Source of the DNA: Marinilabiliales bacterium
Lineage (GTDB): Bacteria; Bacteroidota; Bacteroidia; Bacteroidales; F082
Length of the DNA stretch: 43,553 nt
Assembly (NCBI GenBank): GCA_002869315.1
Contig: PKTD01000167.1
Location: 1 to 43,553 of the forward strand
Direction: 5' to 3'
This document shows positions 7,429 through 35,958 of the stretch, in pieces. A program made the translations under genes and the position numbers. Each line of letters opens with the position of its first letter. Within the stretch, counting starts at the first letter, position 1. The notes below the pieces were generated by a model. The model did no database searches, was not told the origin of the DNA, and saw only the letters and a program-made list of their open reading frames with translations.

Positions 7429-8082
7429 ATGAATAAGTTTCTATTATTTAAAGACAAACTAAAAACATCTTTACAAAATTTGCCGGGTATCGAGGCTCAG
7501 TTAAAAATGGCTCCTATTACCCGATTACAAGAACTACAGAAACAAAGAAATAGTGCAAAACCCCGAAAAAGTGCCGTACTCGTTTTGTTTTATCCTTATA
7601 AGGAGAAACTAATGTTGGTATTAATGAAGCGCACTGATGATAATACAGTTCATAGCGGACAAATATCGTTTCCCGGAGGCAAGTATGAAAAGCAAGATAA
7701 AAACTTGCAGGAGACTGCCCTTAGAGAAGCAAACGAAGAAATGGGAATTATTCCTGAAAAAGTTGAAATAATTGGAGAACTCAGTAAACTATATATTCCC
7801 CCCAGTAATTTTGAAGTATTTCCATATGTTGGCTTCACAGCCGAAAGACCAGATTTTATTGCCAACAAAATTGAAGTAGCTAGAATAATCGAAACAGAGG
7901 TGAATATTCTTTTAAATCCTGCAACCTTTACAAAAAAAGATATCAATCACCGAAACGGTAGTTTGGTAAATGTACCCTGTTATTATTTTGATAATAATTT
8001 GATTTGGGGTGCTACGGCTATGTTAATTAGTGAGTTGACTATGATAATTAACAATGATTATAATGAAGTTTTCAATAATTAA
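7429..8082 (+). CDS. NUDIX hydrolase, CoA-pyrophosphatase-like
   Basis: Nudix box GGKYEKQDKNLQETALREANEEMGI; preceding HSGQISFPGG motif. Confidence 0.93.
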   Translation: MNKFLLFKDKLKTSLQNLPGIEAQLKMAPITRLQELQKQRNSAKPRKSAVLVLFYPYKEKLMLVLMKRTDDNTVHSGQISFPGGKYEKQDKNLQETALREANEEMGIIPEKVEIIGELSKLYIPPSNFEVFPYVGFTAERPDFIANKIEVARIIETEVNILLNPATFTKKDINHRNGSLVNVPCYYFDNNLIWGATAMLISELTMIINNDYNEVFNN

Positions 8083-8990
8083 ATATTGATTTCTCTTAAG
8101 TAATCAGATAAATTGTTGTATTTAAACTCAAACTCCTCATCAATAATTTTTTGCGAAGAAACCCTTTTACCAAAAAGTAATATATCTGCCATTTCACCAT
8201 ATAAAACTTTGAATACTAAGGATGGTACAGCAGGCATGAAAAATGGTTTCCCCAACGATTTCGCCAATTGCCTCATAAACTCCCTATTGTTGACAAACTC
8301 AGGAGCAACAGCATTGAAAACGGAGTTTAAACTTTCATTTTCAATTACGAAATGAAACATTCTCACCAGATCCTCAATTGCAATCCATGGCATATTTTGT
8401 TTTCCGCTTCCCAGAGGAGATCCAATACCCAGTTTTACCGGCATTGCCATTTTAGAAAGTGCACCTCCATTTTCACCTAATACTATTCCTATCCGTAGCA
8501 TATTGGTTCTGATACCTAAATCACGAATCTTCTTTACTTTATTCTCCCATTTTACAACTACCTGAGCAAGAAAATCTTTTCCAGGCTCTGAAGTTTCATC
8601 ACATAATGTATCGGAATCGTCATGACCGTAATATCCTACTGCTGAAGCAGATAAAAACAGCTCTGGTTTTTTAGAGGATTTTTTTACTGCATTGTAGAGC
8701 AAGTCTGTAGTCTTAAGTCTGCTATCTAATATTGCATTCTTTCTGGATTCGGTCCATCGCCCACCGGCAACACTTTCGCCTGCCAGATGTATTATAATAT
8801 CAGCAAACTCTATTGCTCCTTCCTCAAGAAAATCTTCCTTATAATCCCATCTAAAAGATTTTACTCCTGCTATATTATCCCTGCGGCTCAAAACAGCGAT
8901 ATTATAGCCCTTAACCGATAAAAACTCACTTAAAGCCTTACCAATAAATCCACTTCCTCCGCTAATCAGAATATTTTTTTTCTTTGCCAT
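8079..8990 (-). CDS. TIGR01777-family NAD(P)-dependent epimerase (SDR39U1/YfcH-like)
   Basis: ILISGGSGFIGKALSEFL Rossmann motif; IIHLAGESVAGGRWTESRK; SASAVGYYG. Confidence 0.92.
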   Translation of the reverse strand: MAKKKNILISGGSGFIGKALSEFLSVKGYNIAVLSRRDNIAGVKSFRWDYKEDFLEEGAIEFADIIIHLAGESVAGGRWTESRKNAILDSRLKTTDLLYNAVKKSSKKPELFLSASAVGYYGHDDSDTLCDETSEPGKDFLAQVVVKWENKVKKIRDLGIRTNMLRIGIVLGENGGALSKMAMPVKLGIGSPLGSGKQNMPWIAIEDLVRMFHFVIENESLNSVFNAVAPEFVNNREFMRQLAKSLGKPFFMPAVPSLVFKVLYGEMADILLFGKRVSSQKIIDEEFEFKYNNLSDYLREINI

Positions 8991-8994
8991 ATTA

Positions 8995-9657
8995 CTATTT
9001 GTCCTTTAAATATTTATCAGCAACTGAAGATAACGAACTAGTCTTATCATCTTTATGTATATGATTATGAAAATAAGTTAGTTTATTCATAACTTTAAGT
9101 GTTGCCTGAACCTCCTCATCAGTTAAATTACCCATAATTATTTCTGCAGCCACCTGCATCGAATCGAAAGAACTCATAACCTCTTTTACGCCCTCCTCAG
9201 TAAGTGAAATGCGTTTTGCACGTTTATCTTTTTCGTCAGGGTATTCATAAATCAATCCATTATTTATCATTCTTTTAATAATCTCGCTACCGCTGGATAC
9301 CTCCATCAAATGAGTGTCTATCAATTCCTTTTTAAGCATACTTTCCTCTCTCAACAAAGTTGATAAAAAGCCAAATTCGTCCAAAGTTTTAATATTCGTT
9401 TCCGACAAGGCTTTTTTGGTATAATGCTTTGCAAAGCGAAATAGCCCGGCCAGTAAAGTGGAGAATTCTACTTCGGCAAAAGATTTATACTTTTTGAAAT
9501 CTTCCTTTTTATAATTTGATTTAGGAGGAAGATTACTTATAATTAACTTATCACTTAAGTAACTTGAAAACTCTCTTAAATCGTTGTTGTCAAACTCATT
9601 ATCATATTCCTCTAAATAATCTATCAGAGATTTTAAAAGAACTACATCAACCGACAT
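8995..9657 (-). CDS. MarR-family transcriptional regulator
   Basis: Winged-helix pattern FGFLSTLLREESMLKKELIDTHLMEVSSGSEIIKRMINNGLIYEYPDEKDKRAKRISLTEEGVKEV. Confidence 0.85.
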   Translation of the reverse strand: MSVDVVLLKSLIDYLEEYDNEFDNNDLREFSSYLSDKLIISNLPPKSNYKKEDFKKYKSFAEVEFSTLLAGLFRFAKHYTKKALSETNIKTLDEFGFLSTLLREESMLKKELIDTHLMEVSSGSEIIKRMINNGLIYEYPDEKDKRAKRISLTEEGVKEVMSSFDSMQVAAEIIMGNLTDEEVQATLKVMNKLTYFHNHIHKDDKTSSLSSVADKYLKDK

Positions 9658-9695
9658 AAAAAAAATATTAAAAATTTGTTATTTATTACGTTTTT

Positions 9696-9731
9696 GTATT
9701 ATTTTTGCAAATTTAATACTAATTTGTATTA
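9696..9731. promoter_or_regulatory. Overlapping divergent promoters inside a palindromic candidate MarR operator
   Basis: GTATTAttTTTGCAAAttTAATAC (9696-9719) plus a further GTATTA at 9726-9731; TATTTTTGC (+, 9700-9708) and TAAATTTGC (-, 9707-9715) match TAnnTTTGY. Confidence 0.55.
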
Positions 9732-9733
9732 CT

Positions 9734-10462
9734 ATGAAGAAAATAACGATTTTTTTTACAACAATTTTGATTTTTGCTTTGCTGGGTTCTTGCAGCAGTT
9801 CGAAACTAACAACTGAAACTATTGTTTATAAAGACAATAAAGCCGGTCATAACCTCAGTATTGAATTAATAAAAGGTGAGGCTTTCAACAATCCCACTTA
9901 CGTTATGTGGATGGAAGATATGGATGGTAATTTCCTAAAAACCATATTTATAACTAAATCTTATGCAACAGGAATTTATGGCCATAAAATGACATCAGAC
10001 TCTACATGGTCGAATGAAGAAGGAGAATCCATTCAGGCAGCCGCCTTACCATACTGGACTCATAAGAAAGGTTTAATTGATGGTAAACATCTAATACCTA
10101 CACCAAAACATCCTTATGTAGATGCTTATGCCGGGGCAACACCGAAATCTGATTTTATTTTCCAAACTGATGATAGTTCTATGGAAAAGCCTTACAGAAT
10201 ATTGTTGGAGGTAAATCAGCCATGGGACTTTAATAAATATTGGACAAATAGCAAATATATCGATAACCTGCAGTACAAACGATCGGCCCAGCCTAGTGTA
10301 ATATACTCAGTTACAGTAAATACAGATGAAAGCGAATACTTTCTAAACCCCATAGGTCATGGTGATCCTATAGGTGAAAACGGCAAACTGTATACTAACT
10401 TATCAAATCTGACTACTTCGAAAGAGATTTTTAAAAGTATTAAACTGAATTACTCAAAATAA
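9734..10462 (+). CDS. Exported lipoprotein of unknown function, possibly DUF2271-like
   Basis: Lipobox ALLGSC; YVMWMEDMDGNFLKTIFITKSYATG resembles DUF2271-type proteins (weak, by eye). Confidence 0.65.
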   Translation: MKKITIFFTTILIFALLGSCSSSKLTTETIVYKDNKAGHNLSIELIKGEAFNNPTYVMWMEDMDGNFLKTIFITKSYATGIYGHKMTSDSTWSNEEGESIQAAALPYWTHKKGLIDGKHLIPTPKHPYVDAYAGATPKSDFIFQTDDSSMEKPYRILLEVNQPWDFNKYWTNSKYIDNLQYKRSAQPSVIYSVTVNTDESEYFLNPIGHGDPIGENGKLYTNLSNLTTSKEIFKSIKLNYSK

Positions 10463-23483: not shown

Positions 23484-23492
23484 TACATTTGC
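23484..23492 (+). promoter_or_regulatory. Candidate promoter -7 element for the cobalamin operon
   Basis: TACATTTGC (TAnnTTTGY) immediately upstream of the riboswitch. Confidence 0.5.
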
Positions 23493-23499
23493 ATCAATG

Positions 23500-23672
23500 T
23501 AATGGTGCCAATACTGCATGACCATGCAGTTGGCCTAACAGGGAAACAGGTGTGAATCCTGTACAGTTCCCGCTGCTGTAAGCTCAGTAATGCTTTCGAA
23601 ACCTCGGTCACTTTTTCCTTAAAGGAATTGGGAAGGCCTCGAAAGTTGAGTAAGTCAGAAGACCTGCCAATA
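23500..23672 (+). ncRNA. Cobalamin (B12) riboswitch
   Basis: Conserved AATGGTGCC... CAGGGAAACAGGTGTGAATCCTGTACAGTTCCCGCTGCTGTAAGCTC ... GTCAGAAGACCTGCC. Confidence 0.96.
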
Positions 23673-23743
23673 CATATTTTTTATCAAAGCTTTCGGGATA
23701 ATAGCTTGGTGATGTTAAAAAGCATTCCATAATTTTCTTCCTG

Positions 23744-23794
23744 AAAAGTTTTGAGGCTAGTTAAATTATTTAATAATACCTTAAAACTTTTTTT
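23744..23794 (+). terminator. Terminator-like hairpin of the riboswitch expression platform, ending at the start codon
   Basis: AAAAGTTTTGAGG pairs with CCTTAAAACTTTT (one G-U) followed by T-run immediately before ATG at 23795. Confidence 0.6.
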
Positions 23795-25054
23795 ATGAAA
23801 AAGAATTACATTTTTAAACTGATACTGATATTATTCACAGTATTAGCAATAGGCGTAAAAGCGCAAACAACTTACACAAACCAGCTAATAATTGTCAACG
23901 GCGGGGTCTTTAGCGACCCGGATGATTTTGTTACAGTAAGCTCGTTCAACCCTGAAACACAAACAATTTCAGAAGTGGCTACAATTTATACCCAGTCAGT
24001 CCAGGATGTTATAATTATTGACAATTTTGCCTATGTTGCTGCTCAGGATTCGATTGTAAAAATCAATATTGACACTTATGAAAAAGTAGCTTCTGTGAGT
24101 GCTATAGGTATTAACCAACTGGCTAGCGATGGTAATATATTACTTGCTTCATTTTGGTATCCTGTAACTGAAAATTTCGTTAGAATATTTTCATTGGATG
24201 ATCTGACTTTACAAGCAAACATTAGTGAAATTTCAGGTGATGCAGCCGATTTTTTAATTCATGACGGGATTGCATTAGTTGCTGTCCCCGGAGCCTACGG
24301 AAGTACAAGTGGCAAAGTGGCTTCCATAGATATAGCTGAAGGAGTTTTACTTTCAGAAGATGATTATGGTGAATTCTATAGCGGAATTGGTTTTTTTGGC
24401 TTTCACAATGATGTTGTAACCACCTTTATGACAACAGCCTGGGGTGAAACAACAACAAATATTGGCACTTTTGATGATGGAGGCAATATTATTGAACAGT
24501 TTACAATTGAAGATGCGAGTCTAGCCAAAACTGCGGGACAACATCAACAAATTATGTATCTGGAATTGAATAACGGAATTTCAGAATACAATCTTATAAG
24601 CAATAGTGAAAACGCCATTATTGATGCCTTAGATGAAAGCATAGCAAGTTCAGTAGTAGATACTATAAATAACTTGTTTTATATTACTACTACAGATTAT
24701 TTTTCATTTGGATCTGGATATATTTACAATTTCGATGGTACACAAACAGGCACTTTCGAAGCAGGAATCTCAGCCCAGGCTATTGCTATTGACTATCGTA
24801 CGGTAACATCTACCATTGAAAACATTATCACGGATATTTCAGTTTTCCCTAATCCATCATCGGATTTTATTAGTATCAAAACTAATGGATATGAAACTTT
24901 CAACCATATCGAAGTAATTGATAATACGGGCAGGAAGGTTTTAACAGTTTCCAACTCAAACAAATTAGATATCAGAGCCTTAAACAATGGTTTATACTTT
25001 TTAATTGCCAAAAGCAATGAGAAAGTATTTTCTTCCAGATTTATTAAAAACTGA
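23795..25054 (+). CDS. Secreted beta-propeller-like protein with T9SS type A sorting domain, B12-regulated
   Basis: Signal peptide; repeated propeller-like strands; C-terminus ISVFPNPSSDFISIKT...LYFLIAKSNEKVFSSRFIKN. Confidence 0.8.
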   Translation: MKKNYIFKLILILFTVLAIGVKAQTTYTNQLIIVNGGVFSDPDDFVTVSSFNPETQTISEVATIYTQSVQDVIIIDNFAYVAAQDSIVKINIDTYEKVASVSAIGINQLASDGNILLASFWYPVTENFVRIFSLDDLTLQANISEISGDAADFLIHDGIALVAVPGAYGSTSGKVASIDIAEGVLLSEDDYGEFYSGIGFFGFHNDVVTTFMTTAWGETTTNIGTFDDGGNIIEQFTIEDASLAKTAGQHQQIMYLELNNGISEYNLISNSENAIIDALDESIASSVVDTINNLFYITTTDYFSFGSGYIYNFDGTQTGTFEAGISAQAIAIDYRTVTSTIENIITDISVFPNPSSDFISIKTNGYETFNHIEVIDNTGRKVLTVSNSNKLDIRALNNGLYFLIAKSNEKVFSSRFIKN

Positions 25055-26061
25055 TGAAAAAACATAATTCAAATAAGATGATATGGCGTTTCCTGTTTTC
25101 GGGAAGTGTCATATTATTATTGTTCCTTCACTCTTCAATTTTTGCACAGTTTGCTCCTCCGGCAGGACAAGAAGGAAGCACAGCCATCGATGCTGACAGC
25201 AATATATTTGTAGCATGGGCAAATAATTGTGAAATCAATAGAGGTTTAATGGATATCAGCAATCCTGATTTAGGATTTGCATGGTATGGAGAATCTGAAT
25301 CTGCTATTGGTAAGGCTGATAATGATGTAGTTAGCCTTGGAGACGGAGGCTCGGCAATCATATATTTCGAAACACCAATAGTTAATGCAGAAGGGTTTGA
25401 CTTTGCAGTATTTGAAAATGCTTTCCTGGATGAATTTCTTGAACTGGCATTTGTGGAGGTAAGCACTGATGGGTTGAATTATCAAAGAATAAGCAATACC
25501 TCTAATACTCAGAACACAGAACAAATAGAAACATTTGGAGTTTTAAATGCTACACAAATTAATAATCTTGCAGGAAAATATCGCCAGGGTTATGGAACCC
25601 CTTTTGATTTATCCGATCTTGAAAGTACTGACAATATTGATTTACAGAAAATTCACTATATTAAGATAATTGATGTAATAGGCAGTATTGATGAGGATTA
25701 TGCTACTTACGATTCACAAGGAGACATTATTAATGACCCCTGGCCTACCCCTTTTGAAACTTCAGGTTTCGATTTAGATGCCATTGGTATAATTCATGAT
25801 TTAGAACATTTGGGAGTTGACAATTCATCCCATGAAACTGTAGCGATTTATCCTAATCCTTTTAAGGATTATATCAGTTTGTCTAATATTGAAATTGAAT
25901 CCAAAATATTGTTTTACGATTTAAATTCGAATTTGCTTCTTTCAAAAATTGCAAAAAAACATGATTTAAGAATTGAGATAAGTGATTTCCCAAAAGGAAT
26001 TATAATTATTAAAATAGTCGGCCAGGACTCAATTTATACTAAGAAATTATTTCATAATTAA
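25054..26061 (+). CDS. Secreted protein with T9SS C-terminal sorting domain, in the B12 operon
   Basis: FAPPAGQEGSTAIDADSNIFVAWANNCEINRG...FAVFENAF...FVEVSTDG; C-terminal VAIYPNPFKDYISLSN...; TGATG overlap with the upstream gene. Confidence 0.8.
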   Translation: MKKHNSNKMIWRFLFSGSVILLLFLHSSIFAQFAPPAGQEGSTAIDADSNIFVAWANNCEINRGLMDISNPDLGFAWYGESESAIGKADNDVVSLGDGGSAIIYFETPIVNAEGFDFAVFENAFLDEFLELAFVEVSTDGLNYQRISNTSNTQNTEQIETFGVLNATQINNLAGKYRQGYGTPFDLSDLESTDNIDLQKIHYIKIIDVIGSIDEDYATYDSQGDIINDPWPTPFETSGFDLDAIGIIHDLEHLGVDNSSHETVAIYPNPFKDYISLSNIEIESKILFYDLNSNLLLSKIAKKHDLRIEISDFPKGIIIIKIVGQDSIYTKKLFHN

Positions 26062-28016
26062 TGAAAAAAATCTCTTTCAAAATATTGCTATTTATCTGCA
26101 CGCTCATACCAACTATTAGCGTTGATGCTCAGATGATTTACGATACTCTTTTTTTGGATGAGATGATAATAAAATCCAACTATATTGATCATAACTCAAG
26201 TTTAAAAAGTCAGAAAATAGATACACTTTCAAAACGAAATTTAAACAACCTGAATTTAGGGGAGTTGTTGGGGGCAAACAGTCCGGTTTTTATAAAATCA
26301 TATGGAAAAGGAAGTCTGGCTACCGCATCTTTCAGAGGAACAGCAGCATCACATACCAAGGTGCTTTGGAATGGCTTCGAATTAAATTCACCCATGCTGG
26401 GACAGGTTGATCTTAGCCTTATTCCAAATACTTTTTTTGATGAAGTAAGTCTGGATTATGGAGGCAGTTCTCTGGAAAATACTGCAGGTGCGTTGGGCGG
26501 GGCAATCAATTTATCGTCTGGAATTTCCACAAAAAACATGTTTTGTATTAGCCAGTCAGTTGCCAGTTTCAATACTTATACAACAACAATTAATGGCAAT
26601 TTAAGTTTTGGCAAACTAAAATCTTCTACATCTGTATATTTAAACTCTTCAGAAAATTCATTCAAATTCTATAATAATGCCATAATACCCTCTGAATGGC
26701 AAAAACAGGAAAATGCATCATTTTTTAACAGAGGATTCGTACAGGAAATTGATTATCAAATTTCAGATTATCAATCTATAGGACTTAAAAACTGGACAGA
26801 ATGGGACTTTCGTGAAATACCCCAAATTATGAGTAATCAGTTGAGTGGAAATAATGAAGAAACACAAAACAACTTTAACTCCAGAACAATTTTAAACTAC
26901 AAATACCACAAATCGAAAACAATTTTTGAGGTAGATGCTGCATGGTTCTACAGCGATATAAATTATGTTTTAAAAACCACAACGGCTATTAATCATGATG
27001 ATACTGTAACTTACATTAACTCTACAAATTATTCAAATTCAGGTTTTTTGAAAGCCGGCTTTAGCCATAAATTCGCTAGAGGATGGAGCGTAAAATCTGA
27101 CCTGAGTTTTTCTAGGGATATTATTAACTCAAACAATTATGAGTCGCTGAAGACAAGAGAAAAATATGACTTCCTTTTTAAAATAAGTAAAGATTTCAAC
27201 AGTAGATATATTATAGATTTGATTTTACGACAACAATACGTCGATAATAAATTCAATCCTACCACACCATATCTAGGCTTTCTAATAAAACCAATTTCAA
27301 ATAGTGATTTGTTTTTAAGAATCTCGGCAAACATGAATTATAATTTGCCAAGTTTGAATGATCTTTATTGGTATCCTGGTGGCAATATTGAGTTACTTCC
27401 TGAAAAAGGAATACAAATGGATATTGGTTTTAACTATTCCAAATCTTTTACCAAAAAAATAAATATTGAACTGGACCTAAATTATTTTAACTCGGAAATT
27501 TCTAACTGGATACAATGGGTACCAGGAGATTATAGATATTGGACAGCCAGAAATATAGAGTTAGTTAAATCGCAAGGCATTGAAAGTAGTTTGAGTATTG
27601 ATGGAAATATGAATAAAATATTTTATAAACTTTCCATGCAATACGCATATACAAAATCTACCAATGAAAGCGAAAAAGCAGAGGAAGGAGGCTATGCGGG
27701 CCGCCAGCTAATATATGTTCCATTACATTCTGCCAATGTATTCTTGCATTTAAAATACAGGAATTTTGTTTTACACTGGAATTCCCGGTTTACCGGAGAA
27801 AGAAACACCTCATTGGATGAATCATCTAGTTACTCAAATACTCTGCCTGCATTCTCTGTAAGTAATGCTTCTCTTGGAAAAGAATTTAGATTAAACAAAT
27901 ATTCATTTGAATTAAAGTTCAAAATAAATAATATATTCAATAATAGTTACCAAACAATATTATGGCGCCCAATGCCGGGGACAAACTATGAGATCTCCTT
28001 ATCATTTAAGATATGA
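26061..28016 (+). CDS. btuB: TonB-dependent outer-membrane receptor, BtuB-like
   Basis: Plug domain (LGELLGANSPVFIKSYGKGSLATASFRGTAASHTKVLWNGFELNSPMLGQVDLSLIP), barrel to IN.SYQTILWRPMPGTNYEISLSFKI; under the cobalamin riboswitch. Confidence 0.85.
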   Translation: MKKISFKILLFICTLIPTISVDAQMIYDTLFLDEMIIKSNYIDHNSSLKSQKIDTLSKRNLNNLNLGELLGANSPVFIKSYGKGSLATASFRGTAASHTKVLWNGFELNSPMLGQVDLSLIPNTFFDEVSLDYGGSSLENTAGALGGAINLSSGISTKNMFCISQSVASFNTYTTTINGNLSFGKLKSSTSVYLNSSENSFKFYNNAIIPSEWQKQENASFFNRGFVQEIDYQISDYQSIGLKNWTEWDFREIPQIMSNQLSGNNEETQNNFNSRTILNYKYHKSKTIFEVDAAWFYSDINYVLKTTTAINHDDTVTYINSTNYSNSGFLKAGFSHKFARGWSVKSDLSFSRDIINSNNYESLKTREKYDFLFKISKDFNSRYIIDLILRQQYVDNKFNPTTPYLGFLIKPISNSDLFLRISANMNYNLPSLNDLYWYPGGNIELLPEKGIQMDIGFNYSKSFTKKINIELDLNYFNSEISNWIQWVPGDYRYWTARNIELVKSQGIESSLSIDGNMNKIFYKLSMQYAYTKSTNESEKAEEGGYAGRQLIYVPLHSANVFLHLKYRNFVLHWNSRFTGERNTSLDESSSYSNTLPAFSVSNASLGKEFRLNKYSFELKFKINNIFNNSYQTILWRPMPGTNYEISLSFKI

Positions 28017-28033
28017 ATCAAATTTTAAACATT

Positions 28034-29092
28034 ATGAAAATTAATTCAATATTATTATTTTTAATTATCATGATAATAATCAGCACTTTTACTTCATGTA
28101 AAAAGGATGAGCCCCATATTGAAGTAACTGAATTTAAAAATGCATTATTTATTATTAATGAAGGTAATTTCACAACCGGAAACTCCTCCCTCACATATTA
28201 TAATCGTGAGACTTCAGAAACCATTCAAAATGTGTTTTTCAGAAAAAATAATGCCCCTTTAGGGGATGTTGCATATAGTATTTCCATCGATAACGAAAGT
28301 ATATATCTTGTAGTAAATAATTCGCATACCATATATAAAACAGACAAAAATACAGGAATATATCAGGGGAAAATCGACAATTTGACTTCGCCCCGCTACC
28401 TGCTAAAAGTTAATGACAGTATTGCATTTGTAAGCGATCTTTACGAAAATAATATTACGATGATTAATACTAAAAAGATGTCTGTTTCTAATAAACTAGA
28501 TATCGGAAGAACCTATCAAAATTTAATAAAAGTGGGAAAGCAGATTTTCATAACTAACTGGTCGGCTTTCAATAAGGATAAAGAAAATAATATGTTGATG
28601 ATAATTGATACTGAAAGTATGCAATTGACAGACTCTATACAAATCGGCACAGAACCTAACAGCATAGTAAAAGATAAAAATGACAACTTATGGATTTTAT
28701 GCAGTGGTGGTTTCATGAATGAACAAAAGCCATCCCTGTGGAAAATTGATCCGGTAAATAAACAAATATTAAATAAAATTGAATTTAGCGACATAACTAC
28801 ATCCCCAACCAATCTATGTATTAATCCTGCGGGTGATTCATTATATTATTTAAATAGGGATGTTTATAAAATGAGTATAACGGAAAGTAGCATACCTCAA
28901 AATTTCTTTGTTAAACAAGAGGAAAATATAAACTTCTATTCTCTGGCCATTAGCCCTGAAAACCAAATATTTATTGGTGATGCTAACGATTATAATAGAA
29001 ATGGAGAAATATACCGATACTCTTCTGGCGGAAACCTTATATATCAATTTGAAGCAGGAATAATTCCGGGTAACATGGCTTTTATGGATTAA
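28034..29092 (+). CDS. Surface lipoprotein with beta-propeller (DUF5074/YncE-like), BtuG-like
   Basis: Lipobox STFTSC; propeller motif repeats (ALFIINEGNFTTGNSSLTYYN...). ORF-track start 28013; the 28034 Met better fits the signal peptide. Confidence 0.8.
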   Translation: MKINSILLFLIIMIIISTFTSCKKDEPHIEVTEFKNALFIINEGNFTTGNSSLTYYNRETSETIQNVFFRKNNAPLGDVAYSISIDNESIYLVVNNSHTIYKTDKNTGIYQGKIDNLTSPRYLLKVNDSIAFVSDLYENNITMINTKKMSVSNKLDIGRTYQNLIKVGKQIFITNWSAFNKDKENNMLMIIDTESMQLTDSIQIGTEPNSIVKDKNDNLWILCSGGFMNEQKPSLWKIDPVNKQILNKIEFSDITTSPTNLCINPAGDSLYYLNRDVYKMSITESSIPQNFFVKQEENINFYSLAISPENQIFIGDANDYNRNGEIYRYSSGGNLIYQFEAGIIPGNMAFMD

Positions 29093-31131: not shown

Positions 31132-31842
31132 ATGGGAAGAGCATTTGAATATAGGAAAGCAGCAAAAATGAAAAGGTGGGGACAAATGTCGAAGGTGTTC
31201 CCCAGATTGGGTAAAGCAATTACCTTAGCAGCAAAAGAAGGTGGACCAGATCCTGAAATGAATGCTAAACTCAGGCATGCCATTCAGAATGCAAAGGCCC
31301 AAAATATGCCTAAGGATAATATTGATTCCGCAATTAAAAGAGCAAGTGGTAAAGATGCGGATACAGTTGTTGAAGTAAATTATGAAGGTAAAGGACCTCA
31401 TGGAATATGAGTGTTTGTAGAATGCGCAACAGATAATACAACTAGAACAGTTGCCAACGTAAAATCTTATTTTAACAAGGCAGGTGGATCTTTTGTTCCG
31501 ACAGGATCTCTGGAATTTATGTTTAACAGAAAAGCTGTTTTTGAATTCGACAAAACTGATGAACTTGATATTGAAGAACTTGAACTTGAACTTATAGATG
31601 CTGGCCTTGAAAAAATAGAACTCGACGAAGGAACTATAACTGTTACTGCTGATTATCATGATTATGGATCGCTTTCCGATGCACTTGAAAAAATGGGAAT
31701 AGATGTGAAAAATTCAAGTCTCCAAAGGTTTCCAACTTCTCCTGTGGAATTTGATGATGAGCAAATGGTAGAAATTGAGAAATTCCTCGACAAATTAGAA
31801 GACGACGAGGATGTACTTGAAGTATATACCAATATGGCATAG
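31132..31842 (+). pseudogene. yebC: YebC/PmpR-family protein interrupted by in-frame TGA at 31408-31410
   Basis: [30 protein letters not shown]...[40 protein letters not shown]...; both halves in the same frame, total 711 nt. Confidence 0.92.
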
Positions 31843-33410: not shown

Positions 33411-33420
33411 GAATACAGAG

Positions 33421-35958
33421 ATGAAAAGATTATTATTCATAAGCATACTTTCAATATTTTTTTCTGCTAATCTATTTAGTCAGGGTGATATTTGTGTTGA
33501 ATCAGAACCTTTTTGCACAAGTAATCTCTATCAGTTTCCAGCCGGAGTAAATTCGGGAACAGCAGAGTCAGGGCCTAATTACGGATGCCTGGGTACACAG
33601 CCAAATCCTGCATGGTATCATATGAAAATTGCTCAGTCTGGTACTATTAATATACATATGTTCAGTACTCCATTAAGAGATATAGATTTTATTTGCTGGG
33701 GACCTTTTGATGACCCTGTTGACCCATGTACTGCCCAATTAACTTCCAATAAAATTGTTGACTGTAGTTACTCACCAAACCCAACAGAAGATTGTTTTAT
33801 TCCAAACGGACAAGTAGGAGAATACTATATATTATTGATTACAAACTACTCTAATCAGCCTTGCGATATTACTTTTGAAAAAACAGCAGGCACAGGTGAA
33901 ACAGATTGTACAATTGTTCCACCACCAATTGGTAGTAACAGCCCGCTTTGTGTTGGCGATAACCTAATGCTCTGGGCAGATGATTTTGCTAATGCAACTT
34001 ACTCTTGGACAGGTCCTAATGGTTGGTCATCCAACATTCAAAATCCTGTAATTTTCAATGTGGGATTGGAAAACAAAGGTGATTATTCGTTGGTAATTAC
34101 GGTTAATGGTAGTGATAGTGATCCGGTTTCCACTTATGTAATGATATTCCCAAAACCTACACCCGATTTTGATTTTAATAATGCCTGTTTAGGAGATACA
34201 ACTTTCTTTATTGATCAATCTACTGTAAATCCTCCTAGTGCAGAAATAACCACATGGAAGTGGGAGTTTGGAGATGGGGAGATTGATTTTGGCCAGGACA
34301 TGTGGTATCTTTATACGGCTGCAAATGCATATGATGTTACCCTTACTACATATACTGGTTTAATGGGTTGCCCGCAAACAGTTACAAAAACTGTAAATGT
34401 TTATGATGCAGCCAGCGTAGATGCAGGAGAAGATCAAACAATTCCCAACGGATGGACCACACAACTCGACGGAACTGTTGACGGAGGTAGTGGTAGTTAT
34501 GATATTTTATGGACTCCGGAAAACTTACTGGTAGACCCAACAATTGAAGATGCTGAAACAAATCCATTGGGAGTTACTCAGGTGTTTAAACTTACTGTTA
34601 CCGATGCTGTTTCTCAATGTATTAATGCTGATAGTACTACCGTTATTGTTACAGGAGGACCATTGGCTGTAACAGCCAGCGCAAACCCTATGGTAATTTG
34701 TGAAGGCGATATAGTGCATTTGTCAGCAAATCCTACAGGAGGGTCAGGAAATAATACTTATACATGGACATCAGATCCTCCGGGATTCTCAGAAAATATT
34801 AAAGAACCATCAGATTTCCCTACGGGCACTACAACATATTATGTTCAGGTTTTTGATGGTCAAACAACTGTTAATGCAGAAGTTACCGTACAAGTAAAGC
34901 CAAAACCAATAGGCTTTGCTGGAGATGATAAAACTATAACCGTTGGTACATCAACACAGATTAACAGTTCTTCTGTTAGTGGTGGATCCGGAAATTATAA
35001 TTTCTCATGGTCGCCAGCAAATCAATTGGAAGATGCAACACTTCTTAATCCGAAAACAGAAATACTAAATAACAATGTTGAGTTTTCATTTGTTGTAAAT
35101 GATGAAAACGGATGTATTAGCGATGTTGATAATGTATGGATATTTACCGGAGGTGATGGACTTAGCATTAACCCAACTGCATCCCCATCTGTTATTTGTT
35201 TGAATGAGCAAACTACTTTAAGCCCTAATGCTTTTGGCGGTGGCGGAACATATACCTATGAATGGCAAGTAGACGGATCAACGTTTTCAACCAGTGAAAA
35301 TCCAGTTGTAAGCCCCGAAGAAAATACAACTTATACCTGTATTGTTGATGATGGATTCAAAGCTGTTTCAAATGATGTATCAGTAACAGTAAATCCATTA
35401 CCAATTGTTGATTTATTACCTGAGGGATATGATTATTACAGTCAGGATACCATAAAAGCATGTGTAAGAGACTCTGTTATACTAGATGCCGGAAATCTTG
35501 AGAATCCTGCAAATATGAATTATTTATGGTCTAACTCTGCAACAAGCAGAAAAGTAACCGTTAGCACATCCGGTAGTTGGATAGACTTTCAAACATATAG
35601 TGTGGAAGTTGAAAATCCTAATACTCTTTGTTCTGAAACAGGAAAAATGACAATCTTTTTCGATTTTAATGAATGTCAGATAGGTATTGAAGAAATTACT
35701 ACTCTTACAGAAAACATTTCAATGACACCAAATCCTACTGAAGGAATTTTAAATTTGAATATAAAGGATTTGCAAGGCAAAATAAACATCCTTCTCAGTG
35801 ATATAACTGGTAAAGTTGTTTTGAGCAAAAACGATATACAACTTGATAATTCAGAATTTAATACAAAATTAAACTTAAGTTCTGTTCCTTCAGGGGTTTA
35901 TATTCTAAAATTAGAACATAGTACAGGAGATTATTTTGCAAGAATAATTAAAAAATAG
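33421..35958 (+). CDS. Large secreted protein with PKD/Ig-like repeats and T9SS type A sorting domain
   Basis: Signal peptide from Met at 33421; PKD (WEFGDGEIDFG); repeated GGSGxYxxxWxP modules; C-terminal MTPNPTEGILNLNIKD...GVYILKLEHSTGDYFARIIKK. Confidence 0.88.
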   Translation: MKRLLFISILSIFFSANLFSQGDICVESEPFCTSNLYQFPAGVNSGTAESGPNYGCLGTQPNPAWYHMKIAQSGTINIHMFSTPLRDIDFICWGPFDDPVDPCTAQLTSNKIVDCSYSPNPTEDCFIPNGQVGEYYILLITNYSNQPCDITFEKTAGTGETDCTIVPPPIGSNSPLCVGDNLMLWADDFANATYSWTGPNGWSSNIQNPVIFNVGLENKGDYSLVITVNGSDSDPVSTYVMIFPKPTPDFDFNNACLGDTTFFIDQSTVNPPSAEITTWKWEFGDGEIDFGQDMWYLYTAANAYDVTLTTYTGLMGCPQTVTKTVNVYDAASVDAGEDQTIPNGWTTQLDGTVDGGSGSYDILWTPENLLVDPTIEDAETNPLGVTQVFKLTVTDAVSQCINADSTTVIVTGGPLAVTASANPMVICEGDIVHLSANPTGGSGNNTYTWTSDPPGFSENIKEPSDFPTGTTTYYVQVFDGQTTVNAEVTVQVKPKPIGFAGDDKTITVGTSTQINSSSVSGGSGNYNFSWSPANQLEDATLLNPKTEILNNNVEFSFVVNDENGCISDVDNVWIFTGGDGLSINPTASPSVICLNEQTTLSPNAFGGGGTYTYEWQVDGSTFSTSENPVVSPEENTTYTCIVDDGFKAVSNDVSVTVNPLPIVDLLPEGYDYYSQDTIKACVRDSVILDAGNLENPANMNYLWSNSATSRKVTVSTSGSWIDFQTYSVEVENPNTLCSETGKMTIFFDFNECQIGIEEITTLTENISMTPNPTEGILNLNIKDLQGKINILLSDITGKVVLSKNDIQLDNSEFNTKLNLSSVPSGVYILKLEHSTGDYFARIIKK

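Follow-up and report, generated by a model that had tools for sequence, protein, structure and literature searches.

A cobalamin-riboswitch operon in a Marinilabiliales genome that probably adds T9SS-exported corrinoid binders to a BtuB-BtuG importer

We describe here an operon in a 43,553-nucleotide stretch of DNA from an uncultured Marinilabiliales bacterium (GenBank assembly GCA_002869315.1, contig PKTD01000167.1, positions 1 to 43,553 of the forward strand; hereafter the window, meaning that whole stretch), which we interpret with considerable confidence as a vitamin B12 (cobalamin)-scavenging operon that combines a BtuBG importer with two predicted corrinoid binders exported by the type IX secretion system (T9SS). 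The operon runs from a cobalamin riboswitch through two open reading frames, ORF1 and ORF2, into btuB and btuG, all on the (+) strand and closely spaced. An earlier reading made from the letters of the DNA (the sequence-only reading) had placed these four genes under one riboswitch, and the RF00174 match upstream and the tight same-strand run of genes bear this out. The features on which the argument draws are as follows.

23486..23685, (+) strand: cobalamin riboswitch aptamer RF00174 (cmscan 97.9 bits, E 2.2e-23, model positions 1-189 of 189)
23684..23754, (+) strand: putative antiterminator helix, in which 23684-23698 (TCAAAGCTTTCGGGA) pairs with 23739-23754 (TCCTGAAAAGTTTTGA)
23745..23794, (+) strand: putative intrinsic terminator, in which 23745-23756 pairs with 23779-23790 and a T run (23788-23794) ends at the ORF1 ATG
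23795..25054, (+) strand: ORF1, with a signal peptide, a seven-bladed BtuG-like propeller (about residues 26-336) and a T9SS type A sorting domain (residues 350-417)
25054..26061, (+) strand: ORF2, with a signal peptide, a divergent BtuH-like domain (about residues 33-250) and a T9SS type A sorting domain (residues 265-332)
25417..25425, (+) strand: Asn122-Ala-Phe124 of ORF2, aligned with the BtuH G-N-A-F motif by HHalign register
26061..28016, (+) strand: BtuB, TonB-dependent cobalamin transporter of 651 amino acids, with a plug domain, a partial TIGR01779 match and PDB matches 8bmx_C (5e-71) and 8p98_A (2e-64)
28034..29092, (+) strand: BtuG surface lipoprotein (DUF5074 propeller; PF16819 45.9 bits; PDB 8p97_B 1.4e-64), with a lipobox Cys that is invariant in 19 relatives

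We assign ORF1 as a divergent, T9SS-exported BtuG homologue because of its Foldseek and HHalign matches, its T9SS tail, and the presence in one related locus (L181) of a plain, T9SS-tailed BtuG (DUF5074) domain at this operon position. Strictly speaking, it falls outside the BtuG lipoprotein family, since the lipobox Cys is absent and a T9SS tail stands in its place. The sorting domain scores above curated cut-offs (Por_Secre_tail/TIGR04183, 43.1/43.8 bits), while the rest of the protein matched no family in Pfam or NCBIfam, including no Pfam match to DUF4465/BtuJ (PF14717). An AlphaFold2 model from a 28-sequence alignment gave a confident propeller (pLDDT 88.5), such that the description of the first gene in the sequence-only reading, as a T9SS-targeted propeller-like protein, holds. 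That reading had also proposed a Foldseek search as a check, and BtuG structures took the first 13 places among the PDB matches (E 2e-14 to 3e-12), several of them with cobalamin bound, ahead of designed propellers (1e-11). Profile comparison of ORF1 with BtuG by HHalign spanned the whole propeller (329 columns, probability 99, E 3e-18). Among ORF1 homologues, one (L096:1015-2703; labels of this kind denote surveyed loci) possesses an additional C-terminal domain (IDWNDG..AWGYRFDG) resembling a 262-residue lipoprotein of a Bacteroides-type B12 locus (L253:7373-8161), and this domain possibly represents a further family of B12-locus proteins that Pfam does not cover.

ORF2 had been noted simply as a second T9SS protein; its T9SS tail is confirmed (Por_Secre_tail/TIGR04183, 32.5/26.8 bits, above curated cut-offs), and we refine the assignment to a divergent, T9SS-exported BtuH-type protein, which is not a propeller (AlphaFold2 pLDDT 89.8). 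The N-terminal domain matched nothing above cut-off in Pfam or NCBIfam, and PDB searches with the single sequence or a close-family profile returned T9SS tails or chance matches only. The BtuH link surfaced only once distant homologues joined the profile, which then matched 8blw_B (BtuG1, the BtuG-BtuH fusion of Bacteroides thetaiotaomicron) at E 3.3e-6, inside the BtuH domain (residues 408-497). We compared this family by HHalign with a BtuH reference alignment of 19 domain sequences anchored on L255 (matching 8blw_B residues 376-662 at 5e-125 and 7biz at 8e-56), obtaining probability 96 and E 2e-9 for the combined ORF2 family, 97 and 3e-10 for the distant branch alone, and a shorter match of 85 and 6e-6 for the close family alone. 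The close family and distant branch matched one another at E 3e-27, and negative controls (comparisons with DUF4465, and BtuG with BtuH) stayed at HHalign probabilities of 0.06-1.7. Full-length Foldseek of the ORF2 model retrieved mostly beta-sandwich enzymes at low TM-score, together with BtuGH 8blw_B (E 5e-3, TMq 0.34), a match that is suggestive and inconclusive on its own.

Two motifs, SLG-GG and DF-x-N-x-F, are common to ORF2 and BtuH, and Asn122 and Phe124 are kept in 48 of 48 and 44 of 48 ORF2 homologues, respectively. Contacts of BtuH2 with B12 include Asn399 at the phosphate and Phe401 at the lower ligand (PMC8941943), and the spacing suggests that the N and F of the G-N-A-F motif correspond to these two residues; no alignment with ORF2 was obtained for the remaining BtuH contact residues (e.g., Trp577). 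ORF2 was also considered as a DUF4465 (BtuJ) relative and ruled out (HHalign probabilities of 1.7 and 1.2, no Pfam match). A weak similarity to the LIC_13355 lipoprotein was seen as well (E 0.02).

The two downstream genes correspond to what had been proposed for them, a BtuB-like receptor and a BtuG-like lipoprotein propeller, their nearest relatives in the PDB being the B. thetaiotaomicron BtuBG complexes of known structure (PMC10404256). Gene 3, whose best PDB match is BtuB (8bmx_C) and which possesses the plug PF07715, falls below the TIGR01779 equivalog cut-off (54.6 versus 599.7); gene 4 is a DUF5074 propeller with a lipobox adjoining btuB. We assign them as a true BtuB and a true BtuG lipoprotein. 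A KKDE stretch follows the lipobox Cys of gene 4 (Cys29, numbered from an alternative start at 28013) and is compatible with the surface-export signal reported for BtuG (PMC6143338). Of the stop-start overlaps claimed for the operon, TGATG at the ORF1/ORF2 junction and TAATG at the ORF2/btuB junction are real. The ATGA at 28013 likewise exists as an upstream candidate btuG start, but 28034 is probably the better one, 17 nucleotides past the btuB stop and without overlap, because in the aligned relatives the protein opens with a lipoprotein signal of the MKINSILLF...TSC kind.

Upstream, the RF00174 match lies far above the gathering score of 31.5 bits and is the only one in the genome (a 3.29-Mb draft, 87% complete). 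The putative terminator and antiterminator that follow it are mutually exclusive and share the 5' arm of the terminator. Across 15 distinct relatives, 94.5% of the antiterminator cells were paired, against 34-64% when one arm was slid as a control; for the terminator the figure was 91.4% in 15 distinct sequences, against 28-78% in slid controls, and folds predicted for the window leader and several relatives contain the terminator helix. Scanning the region for consensus promoters and terminators gave results at chance level, the loop of the leader terminator being too long for that scan. The leader looks like a transcription attenuator in which the operon would be switched off upon cobalamin binding. 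The sequence-only reading had named a lack of B12 regulation as what would speak against it, and the riboswitch with its conserved putative terminator and antiterminator counters this at the level of sequence.

We then evaluated conservation in a close-family survey of 41 genomes and among GTDB genomes, in which at least 530 loci encode ORF2 relatives; the nearest 80 of these were analysed, nearly all titled as Bacteroidota groups, with riboswitches called by a two-motif pattern rather than by Rfam. ORF1 occurs in 17 of the 41 family genomes and is the first gene after a cobalamin riboswitch in all 17; likewise, all 25 genomes with a true ORF2 have the riboswitch just upstream on the same strand. 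Because the order riboswitch-ORF1-ORF2-btuB-btuG recurs across the family and the riboswitch precedes ORF1/ORF2 in these genomes, the arrangement is not a matter of chance. The phylogenetic spread of the four-gene unit had also been named earlier as worth checking; ORF2 homologues occur across the phylum, with B12 genes or a riboswitch adjoining them in 68 of the 80 nearest loci. Homologues are present in Winogradskyella costae and Mariniflexile gromovii (loci L181 and L191). A T9SS tail was recognised in 75 of these 80, and btuB and/or btuG lie within 4.5 kb in 62; six further loci are B12-linked through a DUF4465 partner (L134, L139, L175), a riboswitch directly upstream (L179, L188) or cobT-cobS-cobC downstream (L146). 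In a phylum-wide search, distant ORF2 homologues were found in other classes and stood beside btuB and/or btuG in 13 of 14 examined cases. By eye, from translations, the L146 arrangement (7990-10336), an ORF2 homologue followed by cobT, cobS and a cobC-like gene, reads as a cobamide salvage operon.

The ORF1 slot itself is exchangeable. The ORF1 propeller fills it in about 30 of the 80 loci, a T9SS-tailed DUF4465 protein in nine Pfam-confirmed loci (L131, L134, L139-L141, L143, L150, L175, L190), and a T9SS-tailed DUF4430 protein in three (L118, L152, L160), DUF4430 being the transcobalamin C-terminal-like domain. In each of these last three loci a riboswitch heads the DUF4430 gene and ORF2, with btuG after them; L152 and L160 show no btuB inside the locus. 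Moreover, single proteins combine the ORF2 domain with DUF4465, in one order in L094 and L189 and in the other in L138, and end in a T9SS tail. Experiments show B12 binding for eight DUF4465 members that are only distantly related to each other (PMC13398666), and BtuJ1 and BtuJ2 of B. thetaiotaomicron belong to this set (PMC12751083). Of the indirect evidence for an action of ORF1 and ORF2 on B12, we consider the strongest to be this swapping of the slot together with fusion to proven B12 binders.

T9SS machinery is present in the genome (SprA, E 5e-167; PorV, E 2e-129), and together with the sorting domains and the signal peptides (judged by eye and from the N-terminal helix of the AlphaFold2 models) it leads us to assign ORF1 and ORF2 as T9SS type A cargo. 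B12-binding-domain proteins (PF02310) are also encoded, including frames of 1048 and 720 amino acids, sizes expected for methionine synthase and methylmalonyl-CoA mutase. Elsewhere in the window, a YebC-like gene (31132-31842, (+) strand) is broken by one in-frame TGA (31408-31410; GGA ATA TGA GTG), which would represent either a sequencing error or a broken gene.

To summarize the proposed mechanism, when cobalamin is scarce the antiterminator would form and all four genes would be transcribed, while bound cobalamin would favor the terminator just before ORF1 and switch the operon off. BtuB and the lipoprotein BtuG would constitute the usual barrel-and-lid importer, and T9SS would carry the BtuG-like ORF1 and the BtuH-like ORF2 across the outer membrane, where they may bind corrinoids at or beyond the surface, raise capture, and hand their ligand over to BtuG/BtuB. 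The organism would then be sending out through T9SS the kinds of binder that in Bacteroides are lipoproteins. The suggestion of the sequence-only reading that T9SS cargo extends BtuB/BtuG capture is thereby strengthened, with ORF1 related to BtuG, ORF2 to BtuH, both genes under the riboswitch, and the slot exchanged with T9SS-tailed B12-linked families; we infer the binding itself from these relationships.

Several observations weigh against this interpretation. Identity between ORF1 and BtuG is only about 15%, such that corrinoid-contacting residues are not to be assumed, and the ORF2-BtuH alignment is confident over about 100 columns only. The leader helices show weak covariation, owing to the high conservation of their sequence. 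Five family members (G005, G008, G009, G015, G023) run riboswitch-btuB without ORF1/ORF2, so the pair is dispensable; btuG follows btuB in four of these five, the G009 stretch ending before that point. The 80 ORF2 loci are nearest relatives rather than a random sample, and 12 of them possess no B12 link (e.g., L144, L154, L174, L157, L158, L176, L177). Within the ORF2 survey, three metagenome-assembled genomes (L144, L154, L174) have a lone ORF2 homologue adjoining a formiminotransferase-cyclodeaminase gene with no B12 gene in sight, and in two loci (L156:3951-5057, L185:1042-2175) a similar-looking secreted partner of about 370 amino acids lies directly upstream of an ORF2 homologue without B12 neighbours.

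Alternative explanations differ in where, and whether, ORF1 and ORF2 would bind. They might be fixed accessory subunits of one BtuB-BtuG complex, anchored through T9SS to lipopolysaccharide and assisting the lid or widening the ligand range, as the strict gene order, the adjacency to btuB and the co-occurrence of ORF1 with ORF2 would suggest; type A sorting tails are, moreover, often anchored. We nonetheless regard this as rather doubtful, given that ORF2 stands alone after a riboswitch in L179 and L188 and with DUF4465 but no nearby btuB/btuG in L134 and L139, arrangements from which it follows that ORF2 needs no adjacent btuB. T9SS cargo can also be released, and ORF1 and ORF2 might instead be shed, soluble or vesicle-borne, as corrinophores that pick up cobamides at a distance from the cell and bring them back to BtuBG, a role proposed for BtuJ-bearing vesicles in B. 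thetaiotaomicron. Shedding would fit the T9SS-tailed DUF4465 proteins in the ORF1 slot and the delivery of cobalamin by a vesicle-borne DUF4465 protein (BtuJ) in B. thetaiotaomicron (PMC12751083), but the sequence gives nothing to tell release from anchoring, and we hold shedding to be as tentative as fixed attachment. More broadly, we entertain, as a speculative extension, that T9SS-exported BtuG/BtuH-type proteins are widespread released Bacteroidota corrinophores returning cobamides to BtuBG, with the BtuH-like partner as the fixed element and several unrelated folds substituting for one another as the capture domain of the first gene.

A somewhat less likely explanation is that both proteins are B12-regulated but do not bind B12, acting for example as adhesins or structural partners. 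Their low identity to BtuG and BtuH leaves room for this, as do BtuL and BtuK2, which lie in B. thetaiotaomicron B12 operons and showed no binding (PMC12751083), and the modest resemblance of the BtuH globular core to non-B12 proteins (PMC8941943). Against it stand the several B12-linked families that replace ORF1 in the same slot, the ORF2-DUF4465 fusions, and the conserved Asn and Phe of the BtuH site. Lastly, T9SS cargo genes are common in such genomes, with another in this window at 33412-35958, and the two genes could in principle be unrelated cargo that drifted into the operon; gene order conserved over many genomes, combined with the BtuG and BtuH homology, effectively refutes this and leaves it barely credible.

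BtuB, BtuG, BtuH and DUF4465 are already known as B12 proteins, mostly as lipoproteins in gut Bacteroides. In the open-access literature (most subscription papers and preprints being outside the search) we found no account of T9SS-exported BtuG/BtuH homologues, of T9SS in connection with B12 uptake, or of the four-gene unit. In most microbial communities B12 is in short supply and competed for, and its uptake by Bacteroidota has been described mainly via the surface lipoproteins of gut Bacteroides; our observations suggest that lipoproteins are not the sole means of B12 capture in many Bacteroidota, which would also use secreted or differently anchored proteins. They indicate that environmental Bacteroidota may export B12-capturing proteins by a second route, suggest through the BtuH link a function for the nameless, phylum-wide ORF2 family, and make testable whether B12-binding proteins are secreted in the manner of siderophores or haemophores.

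By analogy only, haemophore-type capture proteins offer a secreted binder feeding a TonB-dependent receptor, whereas ligand, folds and secretion system all differ from those of ORF1 and ORF2. Closer at hand, the DUF4465 (BtuJ) proteins (IPR027828; PMC12751083, PMC13398666) are proven B12 binders that occur T9SS-tailed in the ORF1 slot or fused to the ORF2 domain, but neither ORF1 nor ORF2 is a member, and the DUF4465 paper makes no mention of T9SS. BtuH (BtuH2 7biz, BtuGH fusion 8blw_B; PMC8941943) is a remote homologue of the ORF2 domain in a similar B12-operon context, yet it is found as a domain of lipoproteins, at times alongside PKD domains or in fusion with BtuG, whereas ORF2 is single-domain T9SS cargo. 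With BtuB-BtuG of B. thetaiotaomicron (PMC10404256, PMC6143338) the operon shares the transporter, the lipoprotein lid, riboswitch control, btuB-btuG adjacency and the propeller fold of ORF1; the cited papers describe lipoproteins only, whereas here an extra, T9SS-tailed BtuG-like propeller is placed before btuB.

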